A stretch of DNA of 13,490 nucleotides from Candidatus Latescibacterota bacterium (GCA_016209865.1 JACQVL010000131.1:1-13490); one strand, 5' to 3'; positions 2 through 13,212 are shown, counted from the stretch's first letter. Translations and numbers: made by a program. The notes: a model not told the origin generated them from the letters alone.

Positions 2-640
2 ACGGCGATGCATATCGTCGAGGGCGCGGGCGCGGACGGGATCACCGTCCACCTCCGGCAGGACCGCCGGCACATCCAGGACGCTGACTTGCCGATGCTC
101 CGTCAGGAGATCACCACCCGGCTCAACTTAGAGATGGCCAACACCGGGGAGATGGTCGGGATTGCCCTGCGCGTCAAGCCGGACATGGTGACCCTCGTCC
201 CGGAGTCGCCGGATGAAGTGACGACGCAAGGCGGACTGGATGTCGTCCGGCACGAACGCGATGTGGCCGCCACGATCGCCCGGTTCCGGGCGGCGGGCAT
301 CCATCCGAGCATCTTCATCGATGCGCAGAGAGAGCAGATCGCCGCGTCGAAACGGGCCGGGGCGGCATCGATCGAGCTGTGCACCGCGCAGTACGCGGAG
401 GCGACCAGTCCAGCCGTCCAGGACCGCGAGTTCGACGCCATCCGATCGACCGCCCGGTATGCCCAGGAACTCGGCCTCCTCGTCAACGTCGGCCATGCGC
501 TCGATTACACCAACACCGCGCGGATCGCGTCCATCCCCGGTCTGTACGATTTCAACATCGGTCACGCGATCATCATCCAGGCGGTGTTCGTCGGCCTGGA
601 GCGGGCGGTGAAGGACATGGTGAAACTGGTGAAAGGATAA
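2..640 (+). CDS. pdxJ: Pyridoxine 5'-phosphate synthase, 5' end outside the window
   Basis: PdxJ joins 1-deoxy-D-xylulose 5-phosphate and 3-amino-2-oxopropyl phosphate to give pyridoxine 5'-phosphate, the ring-closing step of DXP-dependent vitamin B6 synthesis in the cytoplasm. The visible 212 residues contain family landmarks in order: GADGITVHLRQDRRHIQD, LNLEMA, VTLVPE followed by EVTTQGGLDV, the SIFIDA strand, NVGHALDYTN, and a C-terminal NIGHAIIIQAVFVGLERAV phosphate-binding segment. The reading frame is open to the left edge. By comparison with E. coli PdxJ (243 aa, from memory) about 28 N-terminal residues, including the NVDHxATLR strand, lie upstream. The internal ATG at position 8 falls inside the conserved fold and is not the start. 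The stop codon TAA at 638-640 runs straight into the AGGACGA repeats. Identification is near certain; only the true start is unseen. Confidence 0.96.
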   Translation, partial: TAMHIVEGAGADGITVHLRQDRRHIQDADLPMLRQEITTRLNLEMANTGEMVGIALRVKPDMVTLVPESPDEVTTQGGLDVVRHERDVAATIARFRAAGIHPSIFIDAQREQIAASKRAGAASIELCTAQYAEATSPAVQDREFDAIRSTARYAQELGLLVNVGHALDYTNTARIASIPGLYDFNIGHAIIIQAVFVGLERAVKDMVKLVKG

Positions 641-658
641 GGACGAAAAGGAGAGGAT

Positions 659-741
659 AAGGACGAAGGTCGAAGGATGAAGGACGAAAAGGAAAGGTTT
701 TGATTGTTTTCTTCGTCCTTTGTCCTTCATCCTTCGTCCTT
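659..741. repeat. Inverted pair of heptamer arrays (AGGACGA x4 / TCGTCCT x4) between pdxJ and the sugar kinase
   Basis: Four head-to-tail heptamers sit at 660-687 (AGGACGA, AGGTCGA, AGGATGA, AGGACGA) and four at 713-740 (TCGTCCT, TTGTCCT, TCATCCT, TCGTCCT). The second array is the reverse complement of the first: arms 659-688 and 712-741 match at 26 of 30 positions around a 23-nt AT-rich loop. The transcript could fold into a long stem between the pdxJ stop and the kinase start at 751. It might end or attenuate pdxJ transcription, but there is no typical U-run after it. Looser related units (AGGATAA at 634-640) already begin in the pdxJ stop region. Confidence 0.85.
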
Positions 742-750
742 GCTTTAACT

Positions 751-1686
751 ATGTTCGACATCGTCACTTTCGGCGAGTGCATGGTCCGGTTCTCGACGCC
801 GGGCGGGGTGATGCTGGAACAGGCGGAACGGCTGCGCGCGGACCCGGCCGGGACGGAGTCGAACGTCGCCGTCGCCCTCGCCCGGTTAGGCGCCCGGTCG
901 ACCTGGCTGTCCGCCCTGCCTGACAACCCGATCGGACGGTGGATGGCGGAGCGGATCGCCGCCCACGGGGTGGATGTCTCGCATGTCGTGTGGACGCGCG
1001 ACCGCGCGGGGATTTTTTTCTTGGAGGCCGGGTCGCCGCCCCGGGGGAGCCGGGTGGTGTACGACCGGGCGGATTCTGCGGTGAGCCGGCTCACTCCGGA
1101 GATGATCGACTGGGCGTTCGTGACAGACACTCGCCTCCTCCATCTGTCGGGCATTACCCCGGCGCTGAGCGAGTCCTGCCGGGACATCGTCGTTCGCGCG
1201 CTGACGGCCGCCAGAGGCCGGGGCTGTATGACGTCGTTCGATATCAATTACCGGGCAAAGCTGTGGTCTCCTGAACAGGCCGCCTCGGTGCTCAGCCCGA
1301 TGCTGGGCATGGTCGACATCCTGATCTCGACGGTCTCCGACATCCGGCTGCTGTTCGGGTTTGAAGGTTCGCCTGACGAGATGATCGAGCGCGTCCAGAC
1401 CCGGTTCCACAACCGGACGGTCGTCCTGACCCTCTCGGAGGGCGGCGCAGTCGGCTGGTCGGAGGAGACGGGGCTGCTCCGGACCGGGGCACATCCGGTC
1501 GAGCGGGTCGACCGGTTAGGGGCGGGGGATGCGTTCGATGCCGGCCTGCTGTGGGGTCTCTTGCGCGGCGATCTGGCGGGCGGCCTCGCCGCGGGCGCGG
1601 CTCTGGCCTCGCTGTCCCATGCGGAGCACGGGGACGTGACGTGGGCGACCGCGGCGGAGGTGGCGCGGTTGGCGGGGCGATCGTAG
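751..1686 (+). CDS. PfkB-family sugar kinase, probably 2-keto-3-deoxygluconate kinase
   Basis: This 311-residue cytoplasmic kinase belongs to the ribokinase/PfkB fold. PfkB signature 1 is seen as GTESNVAVALARLG (residues 34-47), and signature 2 as DRLGAGDAFDAG (254-265) with the catalytic base Asp260 and the GAGD anion hole. The N-terminal DIVTFGECMVRF and the FDINYRAKLWS segment (163-173) are typical of KDG kinases, which make 2-keto-3-deoxy-6-phosphogluconate from KDG in Entner-Doudoroff-type or pectin/uronate pathways. The ATG at 751 is chosen because it begins the conserved first strand. In-frame sequence upstream only translates the heptamer repeat. No Shine-Dalgarno motif is visible before it. 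No KDPG aldolase or uronate gene is in view, so the substrate is inferred from family resemblance; fructokinase or another PfkB member is possible. The stop codon lies inside the left arm of a 19-bp inverted repeat. Confidence 0.85.
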   Translation: MFDIVTFGECMVRFSTPGGVMLEQAERLRADPAGTESNVAVALARLGARSTWLSALPDNPIGRWMAERIAAHGVDVSHVVWTRDRAGIFFLEAGSPPRGSRVVYDRADSAVSRLTPEMIDWAFVTDTRLLHLSGITPALSESCRDIVVRALTAARGRGCMTSFDINYRAKLWSPEQAASVLSPMLGMVDILISTVSDIRLLFGFEGSPDEMIERVQTRFHNRTVVLTLSEGGAVGWSEETGLLRTGAHPVERVDRLGAGDAFDAGLLWGLLRGDLAGGLAAGAALASLSHAEHGDVTWATAAEVARLAGRS

Positions 1687-1752
1687 GGGCGAAGCATTCG
1701 CTGGTAGCAATGGAGAACGTGTTCTCTTAAAGGGCGAATGCTTCGCCCCTAC
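1683..1752. repeat. Perfect 19-bp inverted repeat overlapping the kinase stop codon
   Basis: The arm GTAGGGGCGAAGCATTCGC at 1683-1701 is perfectly complementary to 1734-1752, with a 32-nt loop. The loop contains its own palindrome, GAGAAC-GT-GTTCTC at 1713-1726. The TAG stop of the kinase (1684-1686) is part of the left arm. The word GGGGCGAAGCATTCGC resembles palindromic repeats scattered in many bacterial genomes (recalled, not searched). It may work as a terminator-like or mRNA-stabilising hairpin, or be a small mobile palindrome. The rest of the gap, 1753-1780, shows no clear promoter or ribosome binding site. Confidence 0.85.
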
Positions 1753-1780
1753 AACCACCACCCCATTATGCCGGACATGT

Positions 1781-2935
1781 ATGAACCGTCCATCATCCCA
1801 TATCCCCCTGATCGTCGGCATCCTGACCCGTCGTTCTCTGGACGACCCGACCCAGCCGTTTGGCCGTCCGACGACGTTCTTCGCGGAATGCTGCATCGAA
1901 GCGGCGCGATTGGGCGTCCAGGTGGTCGTGTTCGAGGCGGACGACCTCGACCCGGACCGGCCGGAGCTCCGGGGGAGCCGGTTCATCGACGGGAGCTGGA
2001 CTGAGCCGGAACTCATGCGGTTCCCCGATGTGGTGTACGACCGGGCGCCGTTGTTCGACCCGGCCTGTGCGACGAGCGCGAACCGGGCACGATTTCGGTT
2101 GATCGACGCCGGGGTGCCATTTATCAACCCGCTCAAGCTGCTGGAGGTCGCTGCCGATAAACTCGCCACATACCGCCTGTTAGTCGGACACGACATCACG
2201 ATGCCCGCCACCGCCCGTCTCGACGAAGAGGGGTTCGCCGAGTACCGGGAGCGGTTCGGCCATCTGTTCGTGAAGCCGGTCCGGGGGTCGAACGGGACCG
2301 GGGTGATCGAAGTGAAACGGGAACACGGCCTGGCGGTCGTGCGGTACGGGACTGAACGGGTGGAGGTCAAGGCTGACGGCCGCCTCTGGGAGACGATCAC
2401 TGCCCTGATGGGGAACAACAGGTCCACACACGGCGTCTCTCTCATTCAGCAAGGGATTTCAACAGAACGAGCCGGTGAGCGACCGTTTCCCCGGTTCGAC
2501 CTCCGGGTGATGATGCAGAAGGATGAGCGAAAAGCCTGGGGGATGACGGGACTCGTCGCGCGGGTGAGCCAGTCGGACGTCCCGACGACCAACCTGAGCA
2601 CGGGGGCGCGCGCGGAGGTGGCGGAGCACGTGCTCGACGACGTGTACGGCCCGGCGATGCGCCGGTCGATCATCGCGTCCGTCACGGAGACCGGCCTGGG
2701 CATCTGTCAGCTCCTGGATCGGGACATCTGCCCGTGTGGGGAGCTGGGGATCGACATCGTGACGGATGCGGCGGGGCGGCCCTGGGTGATCGAGATCAAC
2801 GCGAAGCCCGGACGGAGCGTGTTCAAGCGGATCGCCCAGAGCGCCGAGGTGTCTGAGGAAGATCGGCAGCGCTTCGCGCACATCCGGCAGCGGTCGGTCG
2901 CCATGCCGTTCCGGTATGCGCGGACGCTGGTGTAA
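1781..2935 (+). CDS. YheC/YheD-like ATP-grasp enzyme, ligand unknown
   Basis: This 384-residue protein resembles the YheC/D branch of the ATP-grasp superfamily, enzymes that use ATP to join a carboxylate to an amine or thiol through an acylphosphate. An N-terminal Rossmann-like part begins IVGILTRR (11-18) with FPDVVYDRAP at 81-90. The ATP-grasp core follows: HLFVKPVRGSNGTGVIEV (161-178) with the nucleotide-contacting Lys165 and glycine loop, FDLRVMMQ (239-246), and GELGIDI...WVIEINAKPGR (320-345), where Glu338 and Asn340 fit the magnesium ligands. The Bacillus relatives were named as endospore coat-associated proteins, but nothing here indicates sporulation, and the substrate cannot be read from the sequence. 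The ATG at 1781 starts two lines of evidence: it precedes the first conserved strand, and no better start lies nearby; no clear ribosome binding site is seen. folC begins 22 nt after the stop. Confidence 0.8.
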   Translation: MNRPSSHIPLIVGILTRRSLDDPTQPFGRPTTFFAECCIEAARLGVQVVVFEADDLDPDRPELRGSRFIDGSWTEPELMRFPDVVYDRAPLFDPACATSANRARFRLIDAGVPFINPLKLLEVAADKLATYRLLVGHDITMPATARLDEEGFAEYRERFGHLFVKPVRGSNGTGVIEVKREHGLAVVRYGTERVEVKADGRLWETITALMGNNRSTHGVSLIQQGISTERAGERPFPRFDLRVMMQKDERKAWGMTGLVARVSQSDVPTTNLSTGARAEVAEHVLDDVYGPAMRRSIIASVTETGLGICQLLDRDICPCGELGIDIVTDAAGRPWVIEINAKPGRSVFKRIAQSAEVSEEDRQRFAHIRQRSVAMPFRYARTLV

Positions 2936-2945
2936 GATAGAAAAC

Positions 2946-2973
2946 GGGAAATGGGAAATGGAAAATGAGGAAA
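2946..2973 (+). repeat. GGGAAAT heptamer array spanning the folC start codon
   Basis: Units read GGGAAAT (2946-2952), GGGAAAT (2953-2959), GGAAAAT (2960-2966) and a diverged GAGGAAA (2967-2973). The likely folC start ATG at 2958-2960 is made from the end of the second unit and the first base of the third, so the array supplies the start codon and the first coding residues. No facing inverted arm is visible nearby, unlike at other junctions in the window. Confidence 0.75.
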
Positions 2974-4334
2974 GAGAAGTCGTTCCCCCGTCTACCTACC
3001 GCGAGACACTGCGGTACCTCTACAGTTTTGTTGATTACGAAAAACAGGCGGGCGGTGGGAGCGTCCGGCTCGGCCTGGAGCCGATTCAGGGGCTGCTGCG
3101 CGGGCTGGGCCGCCCGGAGCGGGGATGGCCGTCCGTCCATATCGCGGGCACAAAGGGGAAGGGGTCGACGGCTGCGCTGATCGCCTCCATCGCCCGGCAC
3201 AGCGGGTACCGGGTTGGTCTGTACACCTCCCCGCATCTGATCACTTTCCGGGAACGGATCGTCGTCGATGGGACGCCGATCTCGAAGGAAGAGACGTGCC
3301 GCCTGGTTGATCGCCTCCGGCCGGTCGTGGACGAGGTGACCCGTGGATCGGCCAGCCCACCGACGTTCTTCGACGTGTGGACCGCTCTGGCGTTCCTCTA
3401 CTTCGCGGAGCGCCGGGTCGACCTGGCCGTGGTGGAAGTCGGCTTAGGCGGACGGCTCGACTCGACGAACGTGGTGACGCCCCTCGTCTCCGTCATCACC
3501 CCGCTCGGCCTGGATCATACCGACCGTTTAGGGACGACCCTCCGGGCGATCGCCGGGGAGAAGGCGGGCATCATCAAGGAGGGAGTGCCCACGGTGACCA
3601 GCCCGCAGGAGCCGGACGCGCTGACGGTCATCCGCGACACCTGCCGGGCGCGTCGAAGTCCGCTCCGCCAGGTCGGCCGGGAGATTCAGTTCACCGTCCA
3701 CCGGTCTGATTCCACCGGTCAGGCGTTCGACGTCTCCGGCCGACGGGGGCGGTATCCCAACCTGGAAACCCGGCTGTTGGGCGCCTACCAGGTGGTCAAC
3801 GCCGCGACCGCCATCGGCGCGGTCGAGGAGTTGAATGAGCGCGGGATGGAGATGCCCCTCCGAGGAGTGGAAGAAGGACTGAGGACGGTCGAATGGCCCG
3901 GCCGGCTCCAGGTGGCGCAAGAACGCCCGTGGCTCATCCTCGACGGCGCGCACAACGTCCTCTCCGCGCGGACGCTCGTCCAGGAGGTCCGGCGGTTGTT
4001 CCCGTACCGGCGGGCGATCCTGGTCGTCTCCGTCTCGCGCGACAAAGACGTGCCCGGCGTCTGCGCCGAGCTGGCAGTCCTGGCTGATGTCGTGATCGTG
4101 ACCGGCCGCCGGGTCGTGCGCACGCGCCAGGCCGACCCGGACGAGGTGGCCGGGTGGTTTCGCGTGGCGGGAAAGGACGTCTCGGTGGCCCCGGATGTCC
4201 TGTCCGCCTTGGAGTTGGCCCGCGCGCTGGCATCCCCGGACGACCTGATCTGCATCACCGGGTCGTTCTACCTGGTCGGGGAAGTGATGGAAGGGCTGCA
4301 GCATCTGGAACCGGAGGAAATGTGGAGTCGGTAG
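2958..4334 (+). CDS. folC: Bifunctional folylpolyglutamate synthase / dihydrofolate synthase
   Basis: FolC adds L-glutamate to dihydropteroate and then further gamma-linked glutamates to folates, using ATP, in the cytoplasm. From the chosen start the product is 458 residues, close to the usual 420-450. Visible landmarks: the P-loop HIAGTKGKGST, the folate-binding YTSPHLITFRERI loop, TFFDVWTALAF, VVEVGLGGRLDSTNVV, the ITPLGLDHTDRLG and AGEKAGIIKEGVP segments, and LILDGAHN in the C-terminal domain, all typical of Mur-ligase-like FolC enzymes. Two starts are possible: ATG 2958, or ATG 2916, which would overlap the upstream gene by 20 nt and translate the heptamer repeat. ATG 2958 is preferred because family members start shortly before the YRETLRYLYS segment seen here. 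Neither has a good Shine-Dalgarno. accD, often beside folC, is not present. Confidence 0.94.
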   Translation: MENEEREVVPPSTYRETLRYLYSFVDYEKQAGGGSVRLGLEPIQGLLRGLGRPERGWPSVHIAGTKGKGSTAALIASIARHSGYRVGLYTSPHLITFRERIVVDGTPISKEETCRLVDRLRPVVDEVTRGSASPPTFFDVWTALAFLYFAERRVDLAVVEVGLGGRLDSTNVVTPLVSVITPLGLDHTDRLGTTLRAIAGEKAGIIKEGVPTVTSPQEPDALTVIRDTCRARRSPLRQVGREIQFTVHRSDSTGQAFDVSGRRGRYPNLETRLLGAYQVVNAATAIGAVEELNERGMEMPLRGVEEGLRTVEWPGRLQVAQERPWLILDGAHNVLSARTLVQEVRRLFPYRRAILVVSVSRDKDVPGVCAELAVLADVVIVTGRRVVRTRQADPDEVAGWFRVAGKDVSVAPDVLSALELARALASPDDLICITGSFYLVGEVMEGLQHLEPEEMWSR

Positions 4335-4341
4335 AGAAGAG

Positions 4342-4372
4342 CAGTGACGAGTGACAAGTGACGAGTGACGAG
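4342..4372 (+). repeat. AGTGACG heptamer array, copy 1
   Basis: Four units in register at 4343-4370: AGTGACG, AGTGACA, AGTGACG, AGTGACG. The array fills most of the 49-nt gap between the folC stop and the next gene, and its end runs directly into that gene's ribosome binding site (AAGGAG, 4375-4380). A second copy, matching at 30 of 31 bases, lies at 8810-8840 before the S55 peptidase gene. Confidence 0.9.
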
Positions 4373-4383
4373 AGAAGGAGAAG

Positions 4384-5904
4384 ATGAAATCGACTGCACG
4401 TCATGTATGGGGCGCGCGTTTTCCATGCTGGCTCGTCCTGGTCATCGGACTGGTCGCGCTGAATCTGCCCGTGAGTGCTCAGCAACCTTCGCAGAAGCCC
4501 GCCGCGCCGAAGAAGCCGGCGACAACGCAGAAACCGGCCGCGCCGCCGCAGGCGACCCAGCCGAAGAGCGGGATGAGGACGGGCGGCAGGCCGGTCGTGC
4601 CCGACTCGCCGGAGGAGGCCCAGCGGCGGGCGGCGGCGGAGCGGTTTCTGGCGGCCGTAGCGATCGCCAAGAACAATTTGGCGGCGACGTATTACGTCAA
4701 GGCCCTGTACGACAGCGCGGCCGTCCAGCTCCGTCACGCCCTGAACATCGCCCCGGATTTCGCCGCCGCCCATCTCACCCTCGGACTGGTGTATTACGCG
4801 AAGGGCCAGCGCCAGGACGCGGTCGAGGAGTTCAGGGCCGCCGCTGCGGACGACTCGATCGGCCAGCGGCAGATGGCTTCAGCCCCGCCCGATACGGTGT
4901 ATAACTGGGCCAAAGCTCAGTTCAGCCGGTTCGTCACCGGCATTCCCAACCTGGCGGCCGCCCATGCGGCCCTGGGCGCGGTGTACGATGAGGCCGAGTT
5001 CGACGAGGACGCGGAGCAGGAGTACCTGCGCGCGATCGCGGCCGATTCGTCGTACGCGGGCGCGTACATCAACTTAGGGCGGCTTTACAACGATGCCGGA
5101 GAGTTCGACGAGGCGATCCGGGTGTATGAGAAGGCGCTCGCGTTGAAGGCTGAACTCCCGAAAGTGTACCTCAACTTAGGCGCGTCGTACATGGGAAAAG
5201 GACGAACGGACGACGCCATCCGCGCCTGGCGGACGGCGATCGACCTCTCTCCCCAGTACGCAGAGGCCTACCTGAATTTAGGGATTGCCTACCATAACCA
5301 GGGGTTGGCGGACAGCGCGGTCGCGTGCTGGGAGCGGGCGATCGCCACGCAGCCGAATTTCATCGCGCCACGAGTCGCCCTCGCCCGGTTGCGTGTGAAC
5401 CAGGGCCGGTACCGCGACGCCGAGACAGTCTACCAGAAGGTCTTCGAGCTGGGCGCGAAAGACCCGGTGCTCTACACGGAACTGGCGTTCGTCTGCGAGC
5501 AGCAGGAGAAATACGACGAGGCGCTCGCCAACTACCAGGAAGCGCTCAAGCTCGACCCGGACAACTCGGACGCGAAGACGAGCCTGTCGATCGTGACGCA
5601 GAGGAAGCAGCAGCGGGAAGCGGCCCGGCAGGCGAACAAAGTCCGGGTCAGGCAGATCGTCGTGAGGACGGCGGCGGAAGCGGACAGCGTTCTGGCTCAG
5701 TTGCAGCGCGGGGCGGATTTCACGGACCTCGCCCGGACGCGGTCGATCGACCCCAGCGCATCCGTCGGGGGCGACCTGGGGTTTTTCGGGCCGGGGGACA
5801 TGCTCCCGGTGTTCGAGAAAGCGGCGATGGCGCTCAAAGTCGGCGAGGTCAGCGGGGTGGTGCAGACGCCGATGGGGTTTCATGTTATCAAACGAATCGA
5901 GTGA
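4384..5904 (+). CDS. Exported TPR protein with C-terminal parvulin-type (PpiC) domain
   Basis: This 506-residue protein begins with a Sec signal peptide (basic start, hydrophobic 15-29, likely cleavage after SA at 31-32), so it should act in the periplasm or at the envelope. A Pro/Ala/Lys-rich linker follows (about 35-62). Some eight TPR units fill about 95-396, with a roughly 30-residue break after the second; units 3-8 have the regular 34-residue spacing with YxNLGxxY and AIxxYxxAL patterns. The C-terminal 87 residues resemble a parvulin prolyl isomerase: VRQIVVRTAAEADSVLAQL, GADFTDLA, GGDLGFFGPGDMLPVFEKAA, GVVQTPMGFHVIKRIE. The first catalytic histidine of the family (H in HILV) is Gln424 here, whereas the second (His500) is kept, so isomerase activity is uncertain. 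TPR scaffolding plus a chaperone-like domain suggests a role in folding or assembling exported proteins. The ATG has AAGGAG just upstream with a short 3-nt spacer. trxB follows after 26 nt. Confidence 0.87.
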   Translation: MKSTARHVWGARFPCWLVLVIGLVALNLPVSAQQPSQKPAAPKKPATTQKPAAPPQATQPKSGMRTGGRPVVPDSPEEAQRRAAAERFLAAVAIAKNNLAATYYVKALYDSAAVQLRHALNIAPDFAAAHLTLGLVYYAKGQRQDAVEEFRAAAADDSIGQRQMASAPPDTVYNWAKAQFSRFVTGIPNLAAAHAALGAVYDEAEFDEDAEQEYLRAIAADSSYAGAYINLGRLYNDAGEFDEAIRVYEKALALKAELPKVYLNLGASYMGKGRTDDAIRAWRTAIDLSPQYAEAYLNLGIAYHNQGLADSAVACWERAIATQPNFIAPRVALARLRVNQGRYRDAETVYQKVFELGAKDPVLYTELAFVCEQQEKYDEALANYQEALKLDPDNSDAKTSLSIVTQRKQQREAARQANKVRVRQIVVRTAAEADSVLAQLQRGADFTDLARTRSIDPSASVGGDLGFFGPGDMLPVFEKAAMALKVGEVSGVVQTPMGFHVIKRIE

Positions 5905-5930
5905 TTGATTTAGGAACAAGAGGAGCAGAC

Positions 5931-6863
5931 ATGGAACACGTGATCATTCTCGGCGGAGGACCAGCCGGCTTTACCGCCGCGCTGTACGCAGCACGGGCGA
6001 ACCTGGCCCCGCTCGTCCTGACCGGCCGCGTCTTAGGCGGCCAACTGTCGCTGACGAGCGAGATCGAGAACTATCCCGGCTTTCCCGAAGGCCTCGGCGG
6101 GATGGAGTTGATGGAGAAGTTCCAGCAGCAGGCGGAGCGGTTCGGGGCGGTCATCAAGTATGAAGAAGTCACCGCCGTCCGATTCAGACCGGGCGAGCAC
6201 CACATCACCACGGATAGCGCTGAGTACACCGCCAAGGCGGTCGTCATCTGCACCGGCTCGTCCCCCCGGCTCCTGAACGTCCCGGGGGAGGAGCGGTTCT
6301 TCGGCCGGGGCATCTCGACGTGCGCGACGTGCGACGGCGCGTTCTACAAAGGACGGAACGTCATCGTCATCGGCGGCGGGGACAGCGCGATGGAGGAAGG
6401 GACATTCCTGACGCGGTTCGCCACAAAGGTGCACGTCGTCCACCGGCGCGACCAGCTCCGAGCCAGCCCGATCATGCAAGACCGGGCGTTCGCCAACCCG
6501 AAGCTCGCGTTCGTGTGGGATTCGGTGGTCGAGGAAGTCCTCGGAGACGACACGCACGGGGTCACCGGCGCGCGTCTCCGCAACCTGAAGACGAACGCCC
6601 AGTCCGTCTTAGACGCGGACGGCCTCTTCATCGCCATCGGGCACGTCCCGAACACGCAGCTCTTCAAGGGACAGGTCGACTTAGATGAGCAGGGGTACAT
6701 CGTCACCGACCGGCGGCAGCGGACGAACATCCCAGGCGTCTTTGCGGGAGGGGATGTGCAGGATCATGTCTACCGGCAGGCGATCACCGCCGCCGGGACG
6801 GGCTGCGCGGCCGCGATCGAGGCGGAACGGTATCTGGCGGAGCTGGAGCACGGGAAGGGCTAA
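5931..6863 (+). CDS. trxB: Thioredoxin-disulfide reductase
   Basis: TrxB passes electrons from NADPH through FAD and a redox-active cysteine pair to thioredoxin in the cytoplasm. The 310-residue product has the usual size and parts: the FAD-binding GGGPAGFTAALYAAR (8-22), GGQLSLTSEIENYPGFP (36-52), the redox motif CATC at 131-134 followed by DGAFYKG, the NADPH-binding GGGDSAMEE (148-156) with HRRD (171-174) for the phosphate, and the C-terminal GVFAGGDVQD with the RQAITAAGTGC helix contacting FAD. The start ATG has a good ribosome binding site, AAGAGGAG (5918-5925), five bases upstream. The same frame stays open far upstream, through the preceding gene, but that stretch is not homologous. The gene sits 26 nt after the TPR-parvulin gene and is likely co-transcribed. 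No trxA is in the window. Confidence 0.97.
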   Translation: MEHVIILGGGPAGFTAALYAARANLAPLVLTGRVLGGQLSLTSEIENYPGFPEGLGGMELMEKFQQQAERFGAVIKYEEVTAVRFRPGEHHITTDSAEYTAKAVVICTGSSPRLLNVPGEERFFGRGISTCATCDGAFYKGRNVIVIGGGDSAMEEGTFLTRFATKVHVVHRRDQLRASPIMQDRAFANPKLAFVWDSVVEEVLGDDTHGVTGARLRNLKTNAQSVLDADGLFIAIGHVPNTQLFKGQVDLDEQGYIVTDRRQRTNIPGVFAGGDVQDHVYRQAITAAGTGCAAAIEAERYLAELEHGKG

Positions 6864-6974
6864 AAAAGAGGCGAAAAGGGAGCAGAAAAGTATGGGAGTG
6901 TGGGAGTAAGAGCCCATTCTCTGTTGCCCCCATACACCCATACCCCCATACGTCTTTTTCCTTTTCGCCCTTTC
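6864..6974. terminator. Long imperfect inverted repeat at the convergent trxB / TPR junction, probable bidirectional terminator
   Basis: GGCGAAAAGG (6870-6879) pairs with CCTTTTCGCC (6960-6969). Inside, two TATGGGAG-type octamers (6891-6906) face three CCCCCATA-type octamers (6927-6950), giving imperfect arms of about 40-50 nt. T-runs (6953-6959) follow on the + strand, and the mirror A-rich stretch at 6861-6876 serves the other strand. Position between two converging stop codons, plus symmetry, fits a terminator used from both sides. It belongs structurally to the short-tandem-repeat family at other junctions, here with an 8-base period. Confidence 0.7.
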
Positions 6975-7580
6975 TTACTTCTGCGCCTTTAAATCAGTAA
7001 TCGTCTTCCTGATCGATCCGGCATTCTTGGCGTTCGGGTTGTACTTCAGGTAGGCTTCGTATTCCGCGATCGCGTTCTTATTATCCCCCAGGTTCTGATA
7101 GACGATGCCGAGGTTGAGGTGCCAGCCCGCGTTGTTCGGCTTAGTCTTGAGCGCGGTCTGGTAGGATTTGATGGCGTCTTCAAGCCGCCCGCTCTCCCGG
7201 TACGCGCCCGCGATACCCGCGTGCGCATCGGCATTCGCCGGGTTTAATTTCAGCGCTTCCTGGTACGCTTTCACGGACTCGGCGAGCCGGCCGGTCTTCT
7301 GGAGCGCGATGCCGAGGTTGTACTGGGCTTCTGCGTAACCCGGTTTGAGCTTCACCGCTTCCTGAAGAGCGGCGATCGCCTCGTTATACTTCTTGTTCTT
7401 GATGTAGACGACGCCGAGGTTGTAATGCGTCACCGGGTCTTTCGCGTTCTTCGCCACCGCTTGCTTCGCTTGTTCGATGTTCGCTTGCGCGTAGAGGTCG
7501 GCGACCCCGATGAGTTCGGTCCCGATCAACACCGCACACAACGTCACGCAGGAGACCACGGCTGTGCTGACTCGTGACAT
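6975..7580 (-). CDS. Small exported TPR protein
   Basis: The 201-residue product has an N-terminal signal peptide (hydrophobic segment about 7-29, likely cleavage near YAQA, 30-33) and then four regular 34-residue TPR units over about 50-185: THYNLGVVYIKNKKYNEAI, AQYNLGIALQKTGRLAESV, AHAGIAGAYRESGRLEDAI and GWHLNLGIVYQNLGDNKNAI. TPRs bind other proteins, so this is a periplasmic or envelope adaptor of unknown partner. The ATG at 7578-7580 is preferred over a GTG two codons earlier because GGAGG lies seven bases before the ATG. Compared with its neighbours the gene uses more A/T-ending codons, for example TTA before AAC and AAG. It converges on trxB and lies 103 nt downstream of cysE. No specific pathway can be assigned. 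Confidence 0.82.
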   Translation of the reverse strand: MSRVSTAVVSCVTLCAVLIGTELIGVADLYAQANIEQAKQAVAKNAKDPVTHYNLGVVYIKNKKYNEAIAALQEAVKLKPGYAEAQYNLGIALQKTGRLAESVKAYQEALKLNPANADAHAGIAGAYRESGRLEDAIKSYQTALKTKPNNAGWHLNLGIVYQNLGDNKNAIAEYEAYLKYNPNAKNAGSIRKTITDLKAQK

Positions 7581-7587
7581 GTACACC

Positions 7588-7592
7588 CCTCC
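7588..7592 (-). promoter_or_regulatory. Ribosome binding site of the small TPR gene
   Basis: On the - strand this reads GGAGG, seven bases before ATG 7580 and too close to the GTG at 7586, so it decides the start. The rest of the 7593-7656 gap shows no convincing -35/-10 pair; CATAAT at about 7609-7614 on the - strand lacks a matching -35. Confidence 0.75.
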
Positions 7593-7656
7593 ATGTTGAT
7601 GATGAACGGATTATGATGGATGAAAAGTAATCCTGCTCGACTGCCCTTGTTTTTAC

Positions 7657-7677
7657 CGACCACCGATCACCGACCAC
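7657..7677. repeat. CGACCAC heptamer array just downstream of cysE
   Basis: Three units in register: CGACCAC (7657-7663), CGATCAC (7664-7670), CGACCAC (7671-7677). On the cysE coding strand this reads GTGGTCG, GTGATCG, GTGGTCG, beginning six bases after the cysE stop codon. No facing inverted arm is visible. Confidence 0.8.
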
Positions 7678-7683
7678 TGTGTC

Positions 7684-8619
7684 TCACGCCGTCCGCGACC
7701 CGCGCTGTACGACTTCGAGCTTCGGCGTCCCGATCGTGACCTTCGTGCCCGGCGGAATCGACGAGGTCAGCCAGACGTTCGCGCCGATCACCGATCCCCG
7801 CCCGATCACCGTACTCCCGCCTAAGATCGTCGCGCCCGAGTAGATGACCACCTCGTCCTCGATCGTCGGATGGCGTTTTCCGCCCTTGACGATCCGGCCG
7901 TCCGTATCCTTCCTGAAGCTGAGCGCCCCAAGCGTGACCCCCTGGTAGAGCTTCACCGTATTCCCGATCTCCGTCGTCTCGCCGATGACGACGCCCGTGC
8001 CGTGGTCGATGAAGAAACTCTCCCCGATCGTCGCTCCGGGATGGATGTCGATTCCTGTCTGGCTGTGCGCATGCTCGGACATGATCCGCGGGATCAACGG
8101 GACCTGGCGCAGGTACAGCTCATGGGCGATCCGGTAGGTCGTGATCGCCTGGACGCACGGGTAACTCACGATGACTTCATCGTGACTCTTCGCGGCCGGG
8201 TCGCCGTCGTAGGCCGCCTGTACATCCTTCTTCACGAGCGTCCGGATGCGCGGGAGCTGCTCCAGGACGTCGATCGTGATCCGATCCGCCAGCCCCGGGC
8301 AGTCGGTCGTGTCACGGTTCGCCAGCTTCCACTCGTAGAAGAGGCTCTTCTCGACCTCGTCCCGAAGATGGATGTAGATCGAGTCGAGCAGGCCGTCGAC
8401 GAAGAACGTCACGTTCTGCCGGAGGATGGGTTCCGTCCCGAAATAGCCCGGAAAGAGCAGCGCTAAGAAGTCCCGGAGGATGGAGACCACCTGCTCCCGC
8501 GAGGGCAGGTTGAGGCCATCCGGATGGTTAATCCCGCCCAGCTCATCGTAAGAATCCACGATCTGCGAGGCGATCGTCGCCAGTTGCTTCCGGGTGATCG
8601 TTCTGTGTAAATCGGGCAT
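7684..8619 (-). CDS. cysE: Serine O-acetyltransferase
   Basis: CysE transfers acetyl from acetyl-CoA to L-serine, giving O-acetylserine for cysteine synthesis in the cytoplasm. The 311-residue product has an all-helical N-terminal domain (about 1-180) and a C-terminal left-handed beta-helix of hexapeptide repeats. The catalytic pair is visible with E. coli-like spacing: Asp191 in GIDIHPGA and His206 in FIDHGTG. VVIGETTEIGN, LYQGVTLGAL and KRHPTIED follow. Relative to E. coli CysE (recalled) there is an insertion around 235-247 (FRKDTDGRIVKGG), and the tail is short, ending in Ala rather than the Ile that docks into cysteine synthase. The ATG at 8619 is chosen because MPDLHRTITRKQLA starts a plausible helix, with weak AGGAA upstream. 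A longer frame exists but would translate the palindromic repeat as FPRKRES, a familiar artefact. Confidence 0.93.
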   Translation of the reverse strand: MPDLHRTITRKQLATIASQIVDSYDELGGINHPDGLNLPSREQVVSILRDFLALLFPGYFGTEPILRQNVTFFVDGLLDSIYIHLRDEVEKSLFYEWKLANRDTTDCPGLADRITIDVLEQLPRIRTLVKKDVQAAYDGDPAAKSHDEVIVSYPCVQAITTYRIAHELYLRQVPLIPRIMSEHAHSQTGIDIHPGATIGESFFIDHGTGVVIGETTEIGNTVKLYQGVTLGALSFRKDTDGRIVKGGKRHPTIEDEVVIYSGATILGGSTVIGRGSVIGANVWLTSSIPPGTKVTIGTPKLEVVQRGSRTA

Positions 8620-8641
8620 CTCAACATTCCTTTTTATGGAC

Positions 8642-8663
8642 TCCCGCTTGCGCGGGAATGACA
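8642..8663. repeat. Palindromic repeat with GCAA/TTGC loop in the cysE leader
   Basis: TCCCGC (8642-8647) pairs with GCGGGA (8652-8657) around TTGC, which is a GCAA (GNRA-type) tetraloop on the cysE-coding strand. GGAATGACA at 8655-8663 is matched by its reverse complement TGTCATTCC at 8785-8793. The core CGCGCAAGCG is shared with the hairpin at 10692-10719. It resembles the widespread bacterial repeat of the form TCATTCCCGCGCAAGCGGGA (recalled). It lies about 22 bases before the cysE start, so it would form a hairpin in the cysE leader RNA. Confidence 0.8.
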
Positions 8664-8701
8664 GTATGAAGAGGGGGTCGAACGGTGGGGAAGTATTGTT
8701 C

Positions 8702-8730
8702 AACATACAACAGAGGAGGCAAGAAGTCAA
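8702..8730 (-). promoter_or_regulatory. Candidate sigma70-type promoter for cysE
   Basis: On the - strand, -35 TTGACT (8730-8725, five of six to consensus) and -10 TATGTT (8707-8702, four of six) are 17 bases apart. The expected start point near 8695 gives a leader of about 75 nt that includes the GCAA hairpin. Confidence 0.55.
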
Positions 8731-8775
8731 GCGCTTTCTCCGCCCCCGCCAAAATCGCAGTTCCCCAGAAAGAAG

Positions 8776-8804
8776 TTGCTCCGCTGTCATTCCGTCTGTA
8801 TATT
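8776..8804 (+). promoter_or_regulatory. Candidate sigma70-type promoter for the S55 peptidase gene
   Basis: -35 TTGCTC (8776-8781, three of six) and -10 TATATT (8799-8804, five of six) are 17 bases apart. The predicted start point near 8811 is at the first base of the AGTGACG array, so the array would form the start of the leader RNA. The weak -35 makes this tentative. Confidence 0.42.
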
Positions 8805-8809
8805 CCAAA

Positions 8810-8840
8810 CAGTGACGAGTGACCAGTGACGAGTGACGAG
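8810..8840 (+). repeat. AGTGACG heptamer array, copy 2
   Basis: Units at 8811-8838: AGTGACG, AGTGACC, AGTGACG, AGTGACG. Over 31 bases it differs from copy 1 (4342-4372) only in the last base of the second unit. It lies 12 nt before the ribosome binding site of the S55 gene, and both copies precede genes for exported proteins. Confidence 0.9.
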
Positions 8841-8851
8841 TAAAAAGTCGT

Positions 8852-8856
8852 GGAGG
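8852..8856 (+). promoter_or_regulatory. Ribosome binding site of the S55 peptidase gene
   Basis: GGAGG nine bases before ATG 8866. It decides against the upstream in-frame GTG at 8833, which lies inside the heptamer array and has no ribosome binding site. Confidence 0.75.
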
Positions 8857-8865
8857 TACACGCGT

Positions 8866-10668
8866 ATGGTTCGAAAAGATGGGTTCGCGCTGGGGATGCT
8901 CTTCATCCTCCTCTTTTTTGGCGTCACGGCGGGCTGGGGTCAGACCAGTCCCCCGGCGTTTATGAAGCTGAGTGAGGTTAAAGCCGGGATGAGCGGCTAC
9001 GGCCTGACCGTGTTCCAGGGTACGCAGATCGACACTTTCCGCGTCGAGGTCCTGGGGGTGATGAAGAATATCATCTACCCCAAACGGGACCTGATCATGG
9101 TTCGCGTGTCGGGCTCCTACATCGACCGGGCGGGGGTGATCGCGGGCATGAGCGGAAGCCCGGTGTACATCGACGGAAGGCTGGTCGGGGCGTTAGCGTA
9201 CAGCGGGTTCACGCAGTTCCAGAAAGACCCCATCGCCGCGGTCACGCCCATCGGAGAGATGCTGGAGATTCAGGCCGCCGCAGAGCGCGACGCCCAGACG
9301 TCGGACCGTATGGGCGCGACGGACGATCAGGAGATGCCCGGCTCGTCCCCCTTCGCCGGGAGCGAGCCACAGGCCGGAGTCCCGTCCCTGCTCAGGCCGA
9401 TCAGCGTGCCCCTGAGCGTCTCCGGGTTCGACCCCCGCGCGCTGAGCCTGTTCGACGGGTTCTTCAGAAGGATGGGGTTCATCCCGCTGATGGGGGGCGG
9501 GAGTGGGACGAGCACAAGTCCTGCTGATGGAGGCGTCTCGTCTCTCGTCCCCGGTTCGGCGGTCGCCGTGCAACTCGTCCGGGGGGACATGAACATCGCC
9601 GCGACCGGGACGGTGACCTACCGGAACGGGAATACCGTCTTAGCGTTCGGCCATCCGTTCCTCTGGTCGGGCGCGGTCAACATCCCGATGGCCAAAGCCG
9701 ATATCGTGACGGTCATTCCCGACCTGTCCGTGTCGGTCAAGATGGGCGCCGTCACCGATCAGGTCGGGGCGATCCGGTGGGATCATACGAGCGGGATCTA
9801 CGGCATCTTAGGCGCCACGCCGATGATGATCCCCGTCCGGGTGAATTTCAAGTCGGGCGGCCAGCAGAAGGACACCTACCAGTACGAGGTGATGGTGTCG
9901 CGCGCGTTCACCCCCTTCCTCCTCAACATGACCGTCTCCAACACGATCGTCACGAACGGCCGGCTGGGCGGGGAACGGACGATCGAGCTGGACGGCCGGG
10001 TGACGATGCGCGGCTATCCTGACATCGTCCTTCAGGACCTGTTCTCCGGGAGTGTGACGCTGCAGTCGGTGTCCACCAGTGTGACCGACGTTCTCAACAC
10101 CGTCCTCGACAACCCGTTTGTGACGCCTCATGTCGAGGCGATCTCGCTGACGATGAATTCGACCGATGACCGGCGGACGGCGACGATCGAGGGCGTCTGG
10201 TACGACCGGGATGAGGTCAGGCCCGGCTCCACCCTCGGCCTCACCGTGTTCCTCAAGCCGTACCGTGGGGATCGGGTCGTCAAGAAGACGACGATTCCCA
10301 TCCCGAACACCCTCACAGACGGTGACCTGGTGATCTCGGTCGGGGCCGCTCAGATGCTCACCCAGCAGGAAGTCCGCACGACCCCGCAGCGGTTCCGGCC
10401 GCAGGAGGTCGGACAACTCATCGGCCTGCTCAACAAACGGCGGACGAATAATAAAATCTACATCAAACTCTCCCAGGCCGCCCCCGGCGTGATCGTGAAG
10501 GGCACGGAATTGCCCGCGCTTCCGCCGTCCATCCTGTCGGTGATGGAGTCGAAACGCAGCAGCGGCAGTTTCACCCCGACCCGCGAGGTCGTCCTGGCCG
10601 AACACGACATCGTCACGAATTACGTCATCTCCGGCCAGAGCCAGATTCGGGTGCGGGTGAAGCGGTAA
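8866..10668 (+). CDS. Exported SpoIVB/S55-type serine peptidase homologue
   Basis: The 600-residue product starts with a signal peptide (hydrophobic 8-22, likely cleavage after GWG or nearby). Residues about 34-133 match the serine-bearing half of the S55 domain: LSEVKAGMSGYGLTVFQGT, then VIAGMSGSPVYIDGRLVGAL with probable nucleophile Ser96, then DPIAAVTPIGEML. After a variable, Ser/Gly-rich stretch (about 137-225) comes the histidine-bearing half: GTVTYRNGNTVLAFGHPF with His263, PMAKADIVTVIP and GIYGILGATPMMIPVRV (to about 326). The remaining roughly 270 residues look beta-rich and I do not recognise them. SpoIVB cleaves a signalling protein during Bacillus sporulation; this homologue more likely acts on envelope proteins, substrate unknown. 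The position of SpoIVB's catalytic Asp, 15 residues before the serine, is Val81 here; Asp87 is nearby. No PDZ domain is recognisable. The halves are in the opposite order to SpoIVB. Activity is unproven. Confidence 0.82.
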   Translation: MVRKDGFALGMLFILLFFGVTAGWGQTSPPAFMKLSEVKAGMSGYGLTVFQGTQIDTFRVEVLGVMKNIIYPKRDLIMVRVSGSYIDRAGVIAGMSGSPVYIDGRLVGALAYSGFTQFQKDPIAAVTPIGEMLEIQAAAERDAQTSDRMGATDDQEMPGSSPFAGSEPQAGVPSLLRPISVPLSVSGFDPRALSLFDGFFRRMGFIPLMGGGSGTSTSPADGGVSSLVPGSAVAVQLVRGDMNIAATGTVTYRNGNTVLAFGHPFLWSGAVNIPMAKADIVTVIPDLSVSVKMGAVTDQVGAIRWDHTSGIYGILGATPMMIPVRVNFKSGGQQKDTYQYEVMVSRAFTPFLLNMTVSNTIVTNGRLGGERTIELDGRVTMRGYPDIVLQDLFSGSVTLQSVSTSVTDVLNTVLDNPFVTPHVEAISLTMNSTDDRRTATIEGVWYDRDEVRPGSTLGLTVFLKPYRGDRVVKKTTIPIPNTLTDGDLVISVGAAQMLTQQEVRTTPQRFRPQEVGQLIGLLNKRRTNNKIYIKLSQAAPGVIVKGTELPALPPSILSVMESKRSSGSFTPTREVVLAEHDIVTNYVISGQSQIRVRVKR

Positions 10669-10691
10669 GAGGGCGGGTTTGTGATATGTGA

Positions 10692-10719
10692 TGTCATGCT
10701 CGCGCAAGCGGGCATGACA
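10692..10719. repeat. 12-bp hairpin with GCAA tetraloop between the S55 and propeller genes
   Basis: TGTCATGCTCGC (10692-10703) pairs with GCGGGCATGACA (10708-10719), all twelve pairs if one G-U is allowed, around a GCAA loop. The flanking GTTTGTG (10677-10683) and CACAAAC (10740-10746) form an outer inverted repeat. The core is the same as in the cysE-leader palindrome. The mildly T-rich CCTTTCTT after it could make it a weak terminator for the S55 gene. No promoter is evident in the rest of this 101-nt gap. Confidence 0.85.
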
Positions 10720-10759
10720 GGCCTTTCTTAGGTAACCCACACAAACGGGAATTCAGTTT

Positions 10760-10764
10760 GGAGA
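10760..10764 (+). promoter_or_regulatory. Ribosome binding site of the propeller gene
   Basis: GGAGA five bases before GTG 10770. It overlaps an alternative TTG start at 10758, which it therefore argues against. Confidence 0.65.
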
Positions 10765-10769
10765 ACCTC

Positions 10770-12971
10770 GTGCAGACACGTCAATGGAATCTCATCCTGA
10801 TCCTCATCCTGTTTTCTCTCGCCACGGCCCACGCGTCCACGCCGATCATCTGGGAACAGTCGTCCCAGCGTGACTTTCAGGCCGGGCAGCCCGTCAATAT
10901 CTCCATCTCGACGACCGGCCAGTTGACCTTAGCCCCGGCCGTCGACTCGGTGTTCGAGACGTCGGAGCCGCTTCTCTGGTGCTTAGCGACGGATTCTAAA
11001 GGCAACATTTACGCGGGCAGCGGGAACGACGGGAAGGTGTTCAAGATCGACACGGCCGGCCGTGGGAGTGTGTTCTTCGACGCGGAGGAGTTAGGGGTGC
11101 AGAGCCTGGCCGTCGATGCCTCGGATAACATGTTCGTCGCCACTTTTCCGGACGGCAAGGTCTATAAGCTGACCCCGGACGGCAAGTCGTCTGTGTTCTT
11201 CGCGCCCAAAGAGCGGTACATCTGGGCGCTTGTCCTCGACCGGGCGGGCACTCTCTACGCCGGGACGGGGGAGCGCGGGGTCATCTACAAGATCGACCGG
11301 AACGGGAACGGGCAGGTGTTGGTGGATACCGAGGAGACGCATGTCGTCTCGTTGGCCATCGACCCGTCCGGCAACCTGATCGCCGGGACGGACCCCAACG
11401 GCCGGGTGTATCGAATCTCCCCGACGGGCGCGCTCTCCGTCCTGTACGACGCCCCGCTCCGGGAGATTCGCTCCTTCCTCATCGACAAGACTGGGACGAT
11501 CTACGCGGGCGCGGTCGACGTCCCGCGACGGCGCGAAGGGGCGCCGCGACAGGACGAGGTGGTGGTCTCTGAGGCTACGCCGGGGAGCGCAGAGCCCGGG
11601 AGCGTCGGGACGATCGAAATCACCGCCGATAGAGGGGACGACAGCGCCGCCCGGCGGCAGCGGTCGGGCGGCGGCGGAGCGGTCTACCAGATCACCCCGG
11701 ATGGCGTCGTGCGGGAATGGTGGCGGTCACGGGATGATGTGTGCTTTACCCTCGGACTCGACGACCACGGGACGCTGCTCGTCGGCACCGGGCCGAACGG
11801 GACGCTGTACGCAGTGAACGGGCGCGGCCAGAGCACCGTCCTGGCCAACCTGCAGGAATCGCAGATCACCGCGTGCGTCCGGCTGCCCGCCGGCCAGGTG
11901 TATTTAGCGTCCAGCAACCTCGGCAACCTCTATCGCCTCGGCCCCGGCTATGCCCCGGAAGGGACGTTCGAATCCACGATCAAGGATACCCGCGGGACGT
12001 CCTCCTGGGGGACGATCAGTTGGCGGGGCACCGTCCCGTCCGGCACGGCGGTGCGTCTGTACACCCGCACCGGGAACACCGACACGCCGGACAACACCTG
12101 GAGCGCCTGGTCGAGCCCGTACACCAACCCCGCCGGCGAGCCGGTGATGAGTCCCAAAGCCCGGTACATCCAGTGGAAGGCGTCGTTGACGACGAAGACG
12201 GCGGCCCCGCCCGTGATCGAGAGCGTCTCGTTAGCCTACCTCACTCAGAACATCGCGCCGACGGTGGAGAAGATCACCGTCTACGCTCCCGGCGTCTACG
12301 TGGGGGAGTCGGGCGGGGGAGAGAATCCGGCGGACGACCTCCCGCCGAAGATCGCGGAGCAGTTGGGCAACCGGCAGAGCGGCAATCGGGGCCGGCAGCA
12401 GACGTACGGCGTCCCCACCTACCGGAAAGGGATGCGGACGGTCGTCGTGGAGACTGACGACGAGAACGATGACGACCTCACGTACACGGTGTCCTACCGG
12501 GGCGTCGGGGAGAAACAATGGAAACTCCTCCGCGACAAACTCAAACGCCCGACCTGCTCGTGGGATTCGGAGGCCGTCCCGGACGGGCTGTACACCGTGA
12601 GAGTGGTCGTGAGCGACGCGCCGTCGAACCCGCCCGCCCTGGCCCTCACCGCGGAATCGGTGAGCGAGCCGTTCCTGGTCGACAATACCCCGCCAGCCGT
12701 GACCGGCCTGACCGCCCGGTCTGCCGATCGGCGGACGGTGGTGACGTTCACCGCGCAGGACGCGGCCAGCCCGATCTACAAAGTCGAGTACGCGGTCGAT
12801 GCGGGCGACTGGCTGATCGTCTACCCCAAAGACGGGGTGTGCGACTCGACGACTGAGACGTTCGAGGTGACGCTGAACGCCCTGCCCGCCGGCGAGCACG
12901 CCGTCGCGGTCCGGGTGAAGGACGCGGCGAACAACGTCGGGACGGGGAAGACGGTCATTCAGGTGCCGTAG
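10770..12971 (+). CDS. Large exported seven-repeat beta-propeller protein with Ig/Fn3-like C-terminal domains
   Basis: The 733-residue product (GTG start) has a signal peptide (hydrophobic about 7-20, likely cleavage after AHA at 20-22). Residues about 69-393 hold seven similar repeats of the NHL/SMP-30-like form 'LAxDxxGxLYAGTxxxGxVYKI': near 69, 110, 151, 192, 233, 325 and 366, which fits one seven-bladed propeller. Blade 5 is split between its YAGAV and GGAVYQI strands by a charged, Gly/Arg-rich insertion of about 50 residues (249-302). A beta-rich domain follows (about 398-492, with NTWSAWSSPY and ARYIQWKASL). Two Ig/Fn3-like domains then appear (about 556-637 and 641-733), the latter starting DNTPPAV and ending with KDAANNVGTG. 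No enzyme motif or anchor is visible; a periplasmic or secreted binding or adhesion role is inferred. It follows the S55 peptidase by about 100 nt and may be its functional neighbour. Confidence 0.8.
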   Translation: MQTRQWNLILILILFSLATAHASTPIIWEQSSQRDFQAGQPVNISISTTGQLTLAPAVDSVFETSEPLLWCLATDSKGNIYAGSGNDGKVFKIDTAGRGSVFFDAEELGVQSLAVDASDNMFVATFPDGKVYKLTPDGKSSVFFAPKERYIWALVLDRAGTLYAGTGERGVIYKIDRNGNGQVLVDTEETHVVSLAIDPSGNLIAGTDPNGRVYRISPTGALSVLYDAPLREIRSFLIDKTGTIYAGAVDVPRRREGAPRQDEVVVSEATPGSAEPGSVGTIEITADRGDDSAARRQRSGGGGAVYQITPDGVVREWWRSRDDVCFTLGLDDHGTLLVGTGPNGTLYAVNGRGQSTVLANLQESQITACVRLPAGQVYLASSNLGNLYRLGPGYAPEGTFESTIKDTRGTSSWGTISWRGTVPSGTAVRLYTRTGNTDTPDNTWSAWSSPYTNPAGEPVMSPKARYIQWKASLTTKTAAPPVIESVSLAYLTQNIAPTVEKITVYAPGVYVGESGGGENPADDLPPKIAEQLGNRQSGNRGRQQTYGVPTYRKGMRTVVVETDDENDDDLTYTVSYRGVGEKQWKLLRDKLKRPTCSWDSEAVPDGLYTVRVVVSDAPSNPPALALTAESVSEPFLVDNTPPAVTGLTARSADRRTVVTFTAQDAASPIYKVEYAVDAGDWLIVYPKDGVCDSTTETFEVTLNALPAGEHAVAVRVKDAANNVGTGKTVIQVP

Positions 12972-12975
12972 ACCC

Positions 12976-13212
12976 GACTCCCCCCTTCCCTGTTGGGCAG
13001 ATGGGCAGTCGGCAGGTAGGCAGTGGGATGAATGCCCATCGTGCGGTGGGACAGATGGCTAAACGATGGTGAGGGATTGACAAATTCTTGGCATTATTGT
13101 AGCATAGGTTTGAGAATGAGTGGGTTCAAAGCTTATTGCTCATCTGAGCAGCAGGTGTGACTGCCTACTGCCCACTGCCTATCTGCCCGGTGGGGGAGGG
13201 AAGAGAGGAGTC
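12976..13212. repeat. 237-nt imperfect palindrome with heptamer-rich arms around the yebC promoter
   Basis: Outer arms: 12976-12991 pairs with 13197-13212 at 14 of 16 positions. Inner arms: 12995-13024 (TGGGCAG-type units of 7-8 bases) pairs with 13160-13188 (CTGCCTA, CTGCCCA, CTGCCTA, TCTGCCC) with few mismatches and one bulge. The central stretch of about 135 nt holds a promoter and a small hairpin (TGCTC-ATCT-GAGCA, 13137-13150). The right outer arm includes the yebC ribosome binding site. Confidence 0.8.
13077..13105 (+). promoter_or_regulatory. Strong sigma70-type promoter for yebC
   Basis: -35 TTGACA (13077-13082, perfect) and -10 TAGCAT (13100-13105, four of six) are separated by the ideal 17 bases. 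The predicted start point is near 13112, giving a leader of about 105 nt before the yebC ATG. A sigma54-like GG-N10-GC pattern (13090-13103) overlaps it. Confidence 0.65.

Follow-up and report, generated by a model that had tools for sequence, protein, structure and literature searches.

Facing heptanucleotide arrays at gene junctions of a Candidatus Latescibacterota genome: recurrent unit families, outward polarity and a possible origin as palindromic insertions

The DNA considered here (the window, meaning the whole stretch analysed, bases 1-13,490 of contig C64) carries short arrays of 7- or 8-base units at 7 of its 10 gene junctions, which raises the question of whether these are separate local repeats or the products of one process, and what they might do. 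A sequence-only reading had proposed that each junction has its own unit, that a common process generates the arrays, and that they perhaps act in RNA folding at gene ends. All of the arrays that it had placed were recovered by TRF, as follows.

From 634: degenerate AAGGACG-family copies ahead of the left arm
659-688, + strand: left arm, AAGGACG family, facing 711-741 (TRF, family scan)
711-741, - strand: right arm, AAGGACG family, inverted; TRF unit CTTCGTC (TRF, family scan)
2942-2973, + strand: single arm, GGGAAAT family, the arm itself taken as 2942-2967; TRF unit AAATGGG (TRF, array scan)
4343-4372, + strand: single arm of the AGTGACG family, following the stop codon of the FolC-like gene (TRF)
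6889-6908, + strand: left arm, period-8 palindrome (AGTATGGG / TATGGGAG) (TRF)
6929-6951, - strand: right arm, period-8 palindrome (CCCATACA / CCCCCATA) (TRF)
7655-7677, - strand: single arm, TCGGTGG family; the + strand reads ACCGACC (TRF)
8811-8841, + strand: single arm, AGTGACG family, ahead of the S55-like gene (TRF)
12994-13027, + strand: left arm, TGGGCAG family (TRF)
13160-13188, - strand: right arm, TGGGCAG family, inverted; TRF unit ACTGCCT (TRF)

The GGGAAAT arm at 2942 lies directly 3' of the stop of an ATP-grasp gene and overlaps the start region of the FolC-like gene. Facing arms had been described at three loci, and all three pairs fold far below shuffled sequence (z -7.0 for the AAGGACG pair, -8.0 for the period-8 pair, and -8.0 for the TGGGCAG pair, folded over 12985-13200). 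The single arrays at 4343 (z -1.9) and 8811 (z -0.8) showed no stable fold relative to shuffles, and no Rfam family matched within the window. Two further features of the window may be recorded: at 1687-1755, a heptamer-free junction holds an inverted repeat, gggcgaagcattcgct facing gcgaatgcttcgccc, and 8866-10668 encodes a protein in which a weak match to SpoIVB peptidase S55 precedes a long stretch without assignment.

The source genome comprises 3.75 Mb in 356 contigs and is 83% complete; 1.26 Mb of it, about one third, was analysed, with genes called by a home-made codon model that is approximate and agrees with the ORFs of the window. In 97 kb of intergenic sequence, 104 runs of at least nine matches were found at lag 7, as against 0.8 in dinucleotide shuffles; in the same set lag 8 gave a small signal of 13 runs, and lags other than 7, 8 and the multiples of 7 lay at or somewhat above background. 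This lag-7 enrichment is intergenic, with hardly any in coding DNA. Across the 155 kb of intergenic sequence within the 1.26 Mb, 334 arrays of period 7 and 36 of period 8 were counted, with other non-harmonic periods reaching at most 11 each, and a period-7 array is present in 239 of the 704 junctions of at least 40 bp (34%). Scaled by length, these counts extrapolate to about a thousand arrays in the whole genome. A lag-7 enrichment confined to the window, or no greater than in shuffled sequence, had been named beforehand as the refuting outcome, and the signal obtained is neither.

The idea that the units are locus-specific proved wrong for the source genome, in which about 11 unit families recur (AGTGACG, GATTTTG, TCGGTGG, TCGGGGT, AAGGACG, CAGGGGT, TGGGCAG and smaller ones). 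A 24-bp AGTGACG pattern has 123 matches in the whole genome, overlapping ones counted, and identical arms of 24-32 bp are found at many sites. A control scan with reversed units gave low counts for the six main families, and not for TGGGCAG and AAGAGTG. The arrays share with the class of intergenic heptanucleotide repeats (STRR/LSSR) the tandem units of 7 bp, the intergenic excess over shuffles and the scattering of each family over many sites in the genome. Their arms are mostly 23-33 bp long with start and end phase fixed, and consist of a motif M of 3-5 bases that recurs at 7-base intervals, in most cases 3-5 times, the bases between the copies of M being variable (for example, GATT-TTG-GATT-TTA-GATT-TTG-GATT-TTG-GATT). 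Local scanning clips mismatched arm ends; in an unbiased count the changes fell in the two central spacers and not at the ends, this result coming mainly from two families, and because same-family arms share ancestry the counts do not represent independent events. A rule common to all families, by which the second unit differs, was weakened by this count, in which the second spacer compared with the third gave p 0.065. As to period 8, the window's TATGGGAG family has further members elsewhere in the source genome, and a family built on AACGTT (AACGTTCN) was seen at L070, where it is facing, and at L245, L255, L259, L267, L277 and L083.

Arms that share a junction are arranged in a regular manner. 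Same-family pairs within one junction were facing in 96 cases, tandem in 11 and back to back in none, and different-family pairs were facing in 25 cases and back to back in none; about half of all arms lack a facing partner of their own family. At 5' and 3' gene ends alike, the G-rich strand points away from the gene nearest to it, and in the source genome this outward polarity holds for 160 paired arms against 9 and for 151 single arms against 37, the window's arm at 8811-8841 being one of the minority. Similar proportions were obtained with simple longest-ORF gene calls for arms at most 30 bp from a gene in cyanobacteria (86 versus 4) and in other phyla (27 versus 3). In a pair, this polarity should belong to the family and not reflect the direction of insertion, because a palindrome looks identical either way round. 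Two close convergent arrays with polarity towards the 5' neighbour, the arrangement described in Xanthomonas, are found here as well. Co-directional junctions with a facing pair have a median length of 161 bp, compared with 37 bp for array-free ones, while the sequence outside the arms has a median of 23 bp against 37 bp (p 0.13), and in convergent junctions of 6 against 9 (p 0.37); since the remaining junction length is ordinary, the two arms and the loop appear to have been added as a unit. The main families share period 7, phase, facing geometry, polarity and placement, in junctions of otherwise normal length, and this bears out the earlier suggestion of a common generating process.

On balance, and with moderate confidence, we read the arrays as palindromic insertions with heptamer arms that nest in one another and change by slippage. 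Small palindromic elements (arm, loop, inverted arm) would be added at gene junctions, and elements of different families would settle there because elsewhere they would break genes. Some would insert into the loop of an older element, giving nested palindromes with the old outer arms left; slippage would lengthen or shorten arms by whole 7-base units; single arms would be remnants of pairs; and transcribed pairs would form hairpins, in most cases as a by-product. The terminal inverted repeats typical of MITEs are present, and an interior conserved between copies is found only in the TGGGCAG family of the source genome and, to a weak degree, in a few further families. In the main families most loops bear no relation to those of other copies, and whole-element copies with conserved loops were sought in these families and not found, which argues against the insertion reading, as a recently mobile element would not show such loops. 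Within-family loop similarity is in weak excess (1.75 versus 1.62 permuted, a value reached by 0 of 1000 permutations). REP-like ATTCCCG...CGGGAAT copies form an exception to the unrelated loops, and the loops of the AGTGACG family hold further nested palindromes and REPs. The search for a RAYT-type transposase (Y1_Tnp, PF01797), the gene expected beside RAYT-mobilised REP elements, found none in the source genome at 83% completeness, so that RAYT was set aside as the mobiliser; this result, together with the fact that the evidence for nesting comes from Nostoc, also speaks against insertion. As separate observations, REP-like palindromes of the ATTCCCGCGAAAGCGGGAAT type occur in junctions of the window (8636-8665 and 10693-10719) and inside 11 of 83 heptamer-element loops (including L054, L270, L274, L279 and L280), and TCATTCTGAGCGAAGCGAAGAATC-type repeats lie within loops at L274:7778 and L088:9166.

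The Nostoc evidence concerns one convergent junction compared across 20 species with flanks 84-100% identical. Facing heptamer arrays are present in 19 of the 20, the remaining species (L301) having no clear array, and at least five unit families occupy the site (GATTTTG, ATTGGGC/GACTGGG, ATGGGGC, AGTTAGG, GGGGACT and GAGGAGT). In L283, a GATTTTG palindrome sits between the older-arm remnants GGATTGGGC and CTCCCCACTCCC; the same compound element occurs at an unrelated site in L160 with different right-arm unit variants, and Nostoc genomes contain many partial copies. Between close species the junction differs by 7 bp (L285/L286) and 14 bp (L296/L297). The best reading of these data is that an element inserted into an array already present and that units turned over, in Nostoc and not in the source genome. 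A second region, L124:50-750 with its orthologues L343-L372, likewise has facing heptamer arrays, and its length is 2 mod 3 in 30 of 30 Nostoc species; it is probably an in-frame protein linker, and for this reason was dropped as a second intergenic junction.

One arm sequence is also shared far more widely. Among the matches listed, the 25-mer arm GATTTTGGATTTTAGATTTTGGATT is exact in many cyanobacteria and in records labelled Chloroflexi, Acidobacteria, Verrucomicrobia, Phycisphaerae, Blastopirellula, Deltaproteobacteria and Ignavibacteria. It is present in 8 of 384 sampled species genomes and in multiple copies in some carriers (40 in one acidobacterium), and the reversed string had zero matches in the genomes scanned. 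Since several of the records are metagenome bins, individual cases could stem from a mis-binned contig, which would hardly account for the multi-copy ones. Nearer to the source genome, one relative (G011) has four GATTTTG arms, and sister-genus relatives had no period-7 array in sampled loci of up to 3.9 kb. The TCGGGGT-family arm was found only in the source genome among 384 genomes, and the AGTGACG arm only there among 39; sharing across phyla was seen for one family only. It is possible, albeit doubtful, that a single undescribed process makes or spreads palindromes with strictly 7-periodic arms in several phyla, the G-rich strand always leading away from genes, and moves whole arms from phylum to phylum.

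The main rival to insertion, which we regard as rather unlikely, is that the arrays are RNA hairpins under selection, serving as bidirectional terminators or mRNA stabilisers, with the structure maintained as the sequence drifts. The stable folds of the facing pairs (z of about -7 to -8) fit such a role, as do the A-rich bases ahead of the 5' arm, and hence T-rich bases after the 3' arm, and the Nostoc convergent junction, which keeps its facing geometry while units change, a left CATTGGG opposite a right CCCAGTC still mostly pairing. Against it, two arms at one junction resemble each other no more closely than same-family arms taken from different junctions (19.1 for own pairs versus 19.7 permuted), and compensatory pairing between them was rejected on this score. 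Tolerance of G-U pairs predicts an excess of G>A changes in 3' arms, whereas the share of G>A among changes is 55% in the 5' arms of transcripts and 57% in the 3' arms. With neither arm covariation nor G-U asymmetry, no sign of selection for RNA pairing was seen. About half of the arms are, moreover, unpaired, those at gene 5' ends precede the start codon by a median of about 18 bp, too near for a promoter behind a terminator, and facing arrays also occur within the probable coding linker of Nostoc. Of the earlier interpretation as a whole, the common process has stood, while locus-specific units have not, and a role in RNA folding at gene ends finds no support beyond the fact that pairs are foldable.

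Two other explanations are improbable to a similar degree. According to one, the arrays are simple microsatellites made in place, without insertion, by polymerase slippage with a preferred 7-base step, which would agree with the dominance of period 7, with the length changes of 7, and with a published proposal, as cited in two of the papers compared below (PMC4679880; PMC4692102), that the heptamer corresponds to a polymerase footprint. Production in place is hard to reconcile with the identical 24-32 bp arms at many sites, the same family inverted on both sides of one junction, the addition evident in junction lengths, or a 25-mer that recurs across phyla while its reversed string has no match. 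The other supposes that the arrays are bound by a protein recognising a motif at 7-bp intervals. Ribbon-helix-helix omega/delta proteins bind heptads, and the fixed motif every 7 bp, variable spacers and fixed ends would suit such a protein; against this, about 11 unrelated motifs in one genome would call for many specificities, and a position a few bases after stop codons is not promoter-like. Least probable is that a templated, telomerase-like polymerase adds arms to broken DNA ends, which are then rejoined around filler. Such a mechanism would account for a G-strand pointing outward at both gene ends, for arms of one family on either side and for their independent variation, but insertion agrees better with the loops conserved in some families and with the nested compound elements.

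Insertion of palindromes remains the reading preferred here, and it bears on a long-standing problem: heptamer repeats in bacteria are familiar from earlier work, yet neither their origin nor their function is agreed upon. The combination of many families, an exact cross-phylum arm and unit replacement with kept geometry makes their origin answerable by strain comparison. Heptamer arrays can also disturb assembly, the annotation of gene ends and repeat-based typing.

Several known systems resemble these arrays in part. The GGGAATC repeats of Xanthomonas are intergenic heptamers, mostly of four units, with 70-75 convergent pairs per genome, and lie almost exclusively nearer to the 5' neighbouring ORF (28 versus 160 nt) (PMC4692102). 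They share with the source genome the heptamer, the approximately four units, the facing pairs and the nearness to the 5' ORF, which equals its polarity, but form one G-rich family, whereas the source genome, from another lineage and with insertion and nesting evidence, has about 11 families of the same architecture, several of them not G-quadruplex-like. In the P6b hairpin of the Nostoc trnL intron, the heptamer motifs TDNGATT and NNTGAGT have undergone repeated shifts from one to the other at one site (PMC4476775). Cyanobacterial STRR and P6b repeats resemble the present ones in their facing heptamer arrays, the GATTTTG family having the exact TDNGATT form, and the P6b motif shifts parallel the unit replacement at the Nostoc convergent junction; P6b, however, lies within a group I intron, whereas the arrays here are intergenic, in a genome whose nearest kin are apparently non-cyanobacterial. 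The TAACTGA repeats of Beggiatoaceae lie near start codons, are patchily common to Cyanobacteria and Bacteroidetes and show 7-nt indels between strains; they are a single unit, mostly unpaired and forward to the start codon, and related heptamers are rare in that genome (PMC4679880). Placement near start codons and patchy cross-phylum sharing liken them to the source arrays, from which the single, mostly unpaired unit sets them apart, given the many facing families here. REP/BIME and MITE elements are likewise dispersed intergenic palindromes, but the arms of the source genome are period-7 arrays, with loops mostly not conserved and no RAYT found. For single families, earlier papers already describe facing pairs, four-unit arrays and near-gene polarity. 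As far as the searched literature shows, what is new is that one genome outside those groups holds many families built to one architecture, that junction lengths give evidence for insertion, that an exact arm recurs across several phyla, and that units are replaced at an orthologous intergenic junction.
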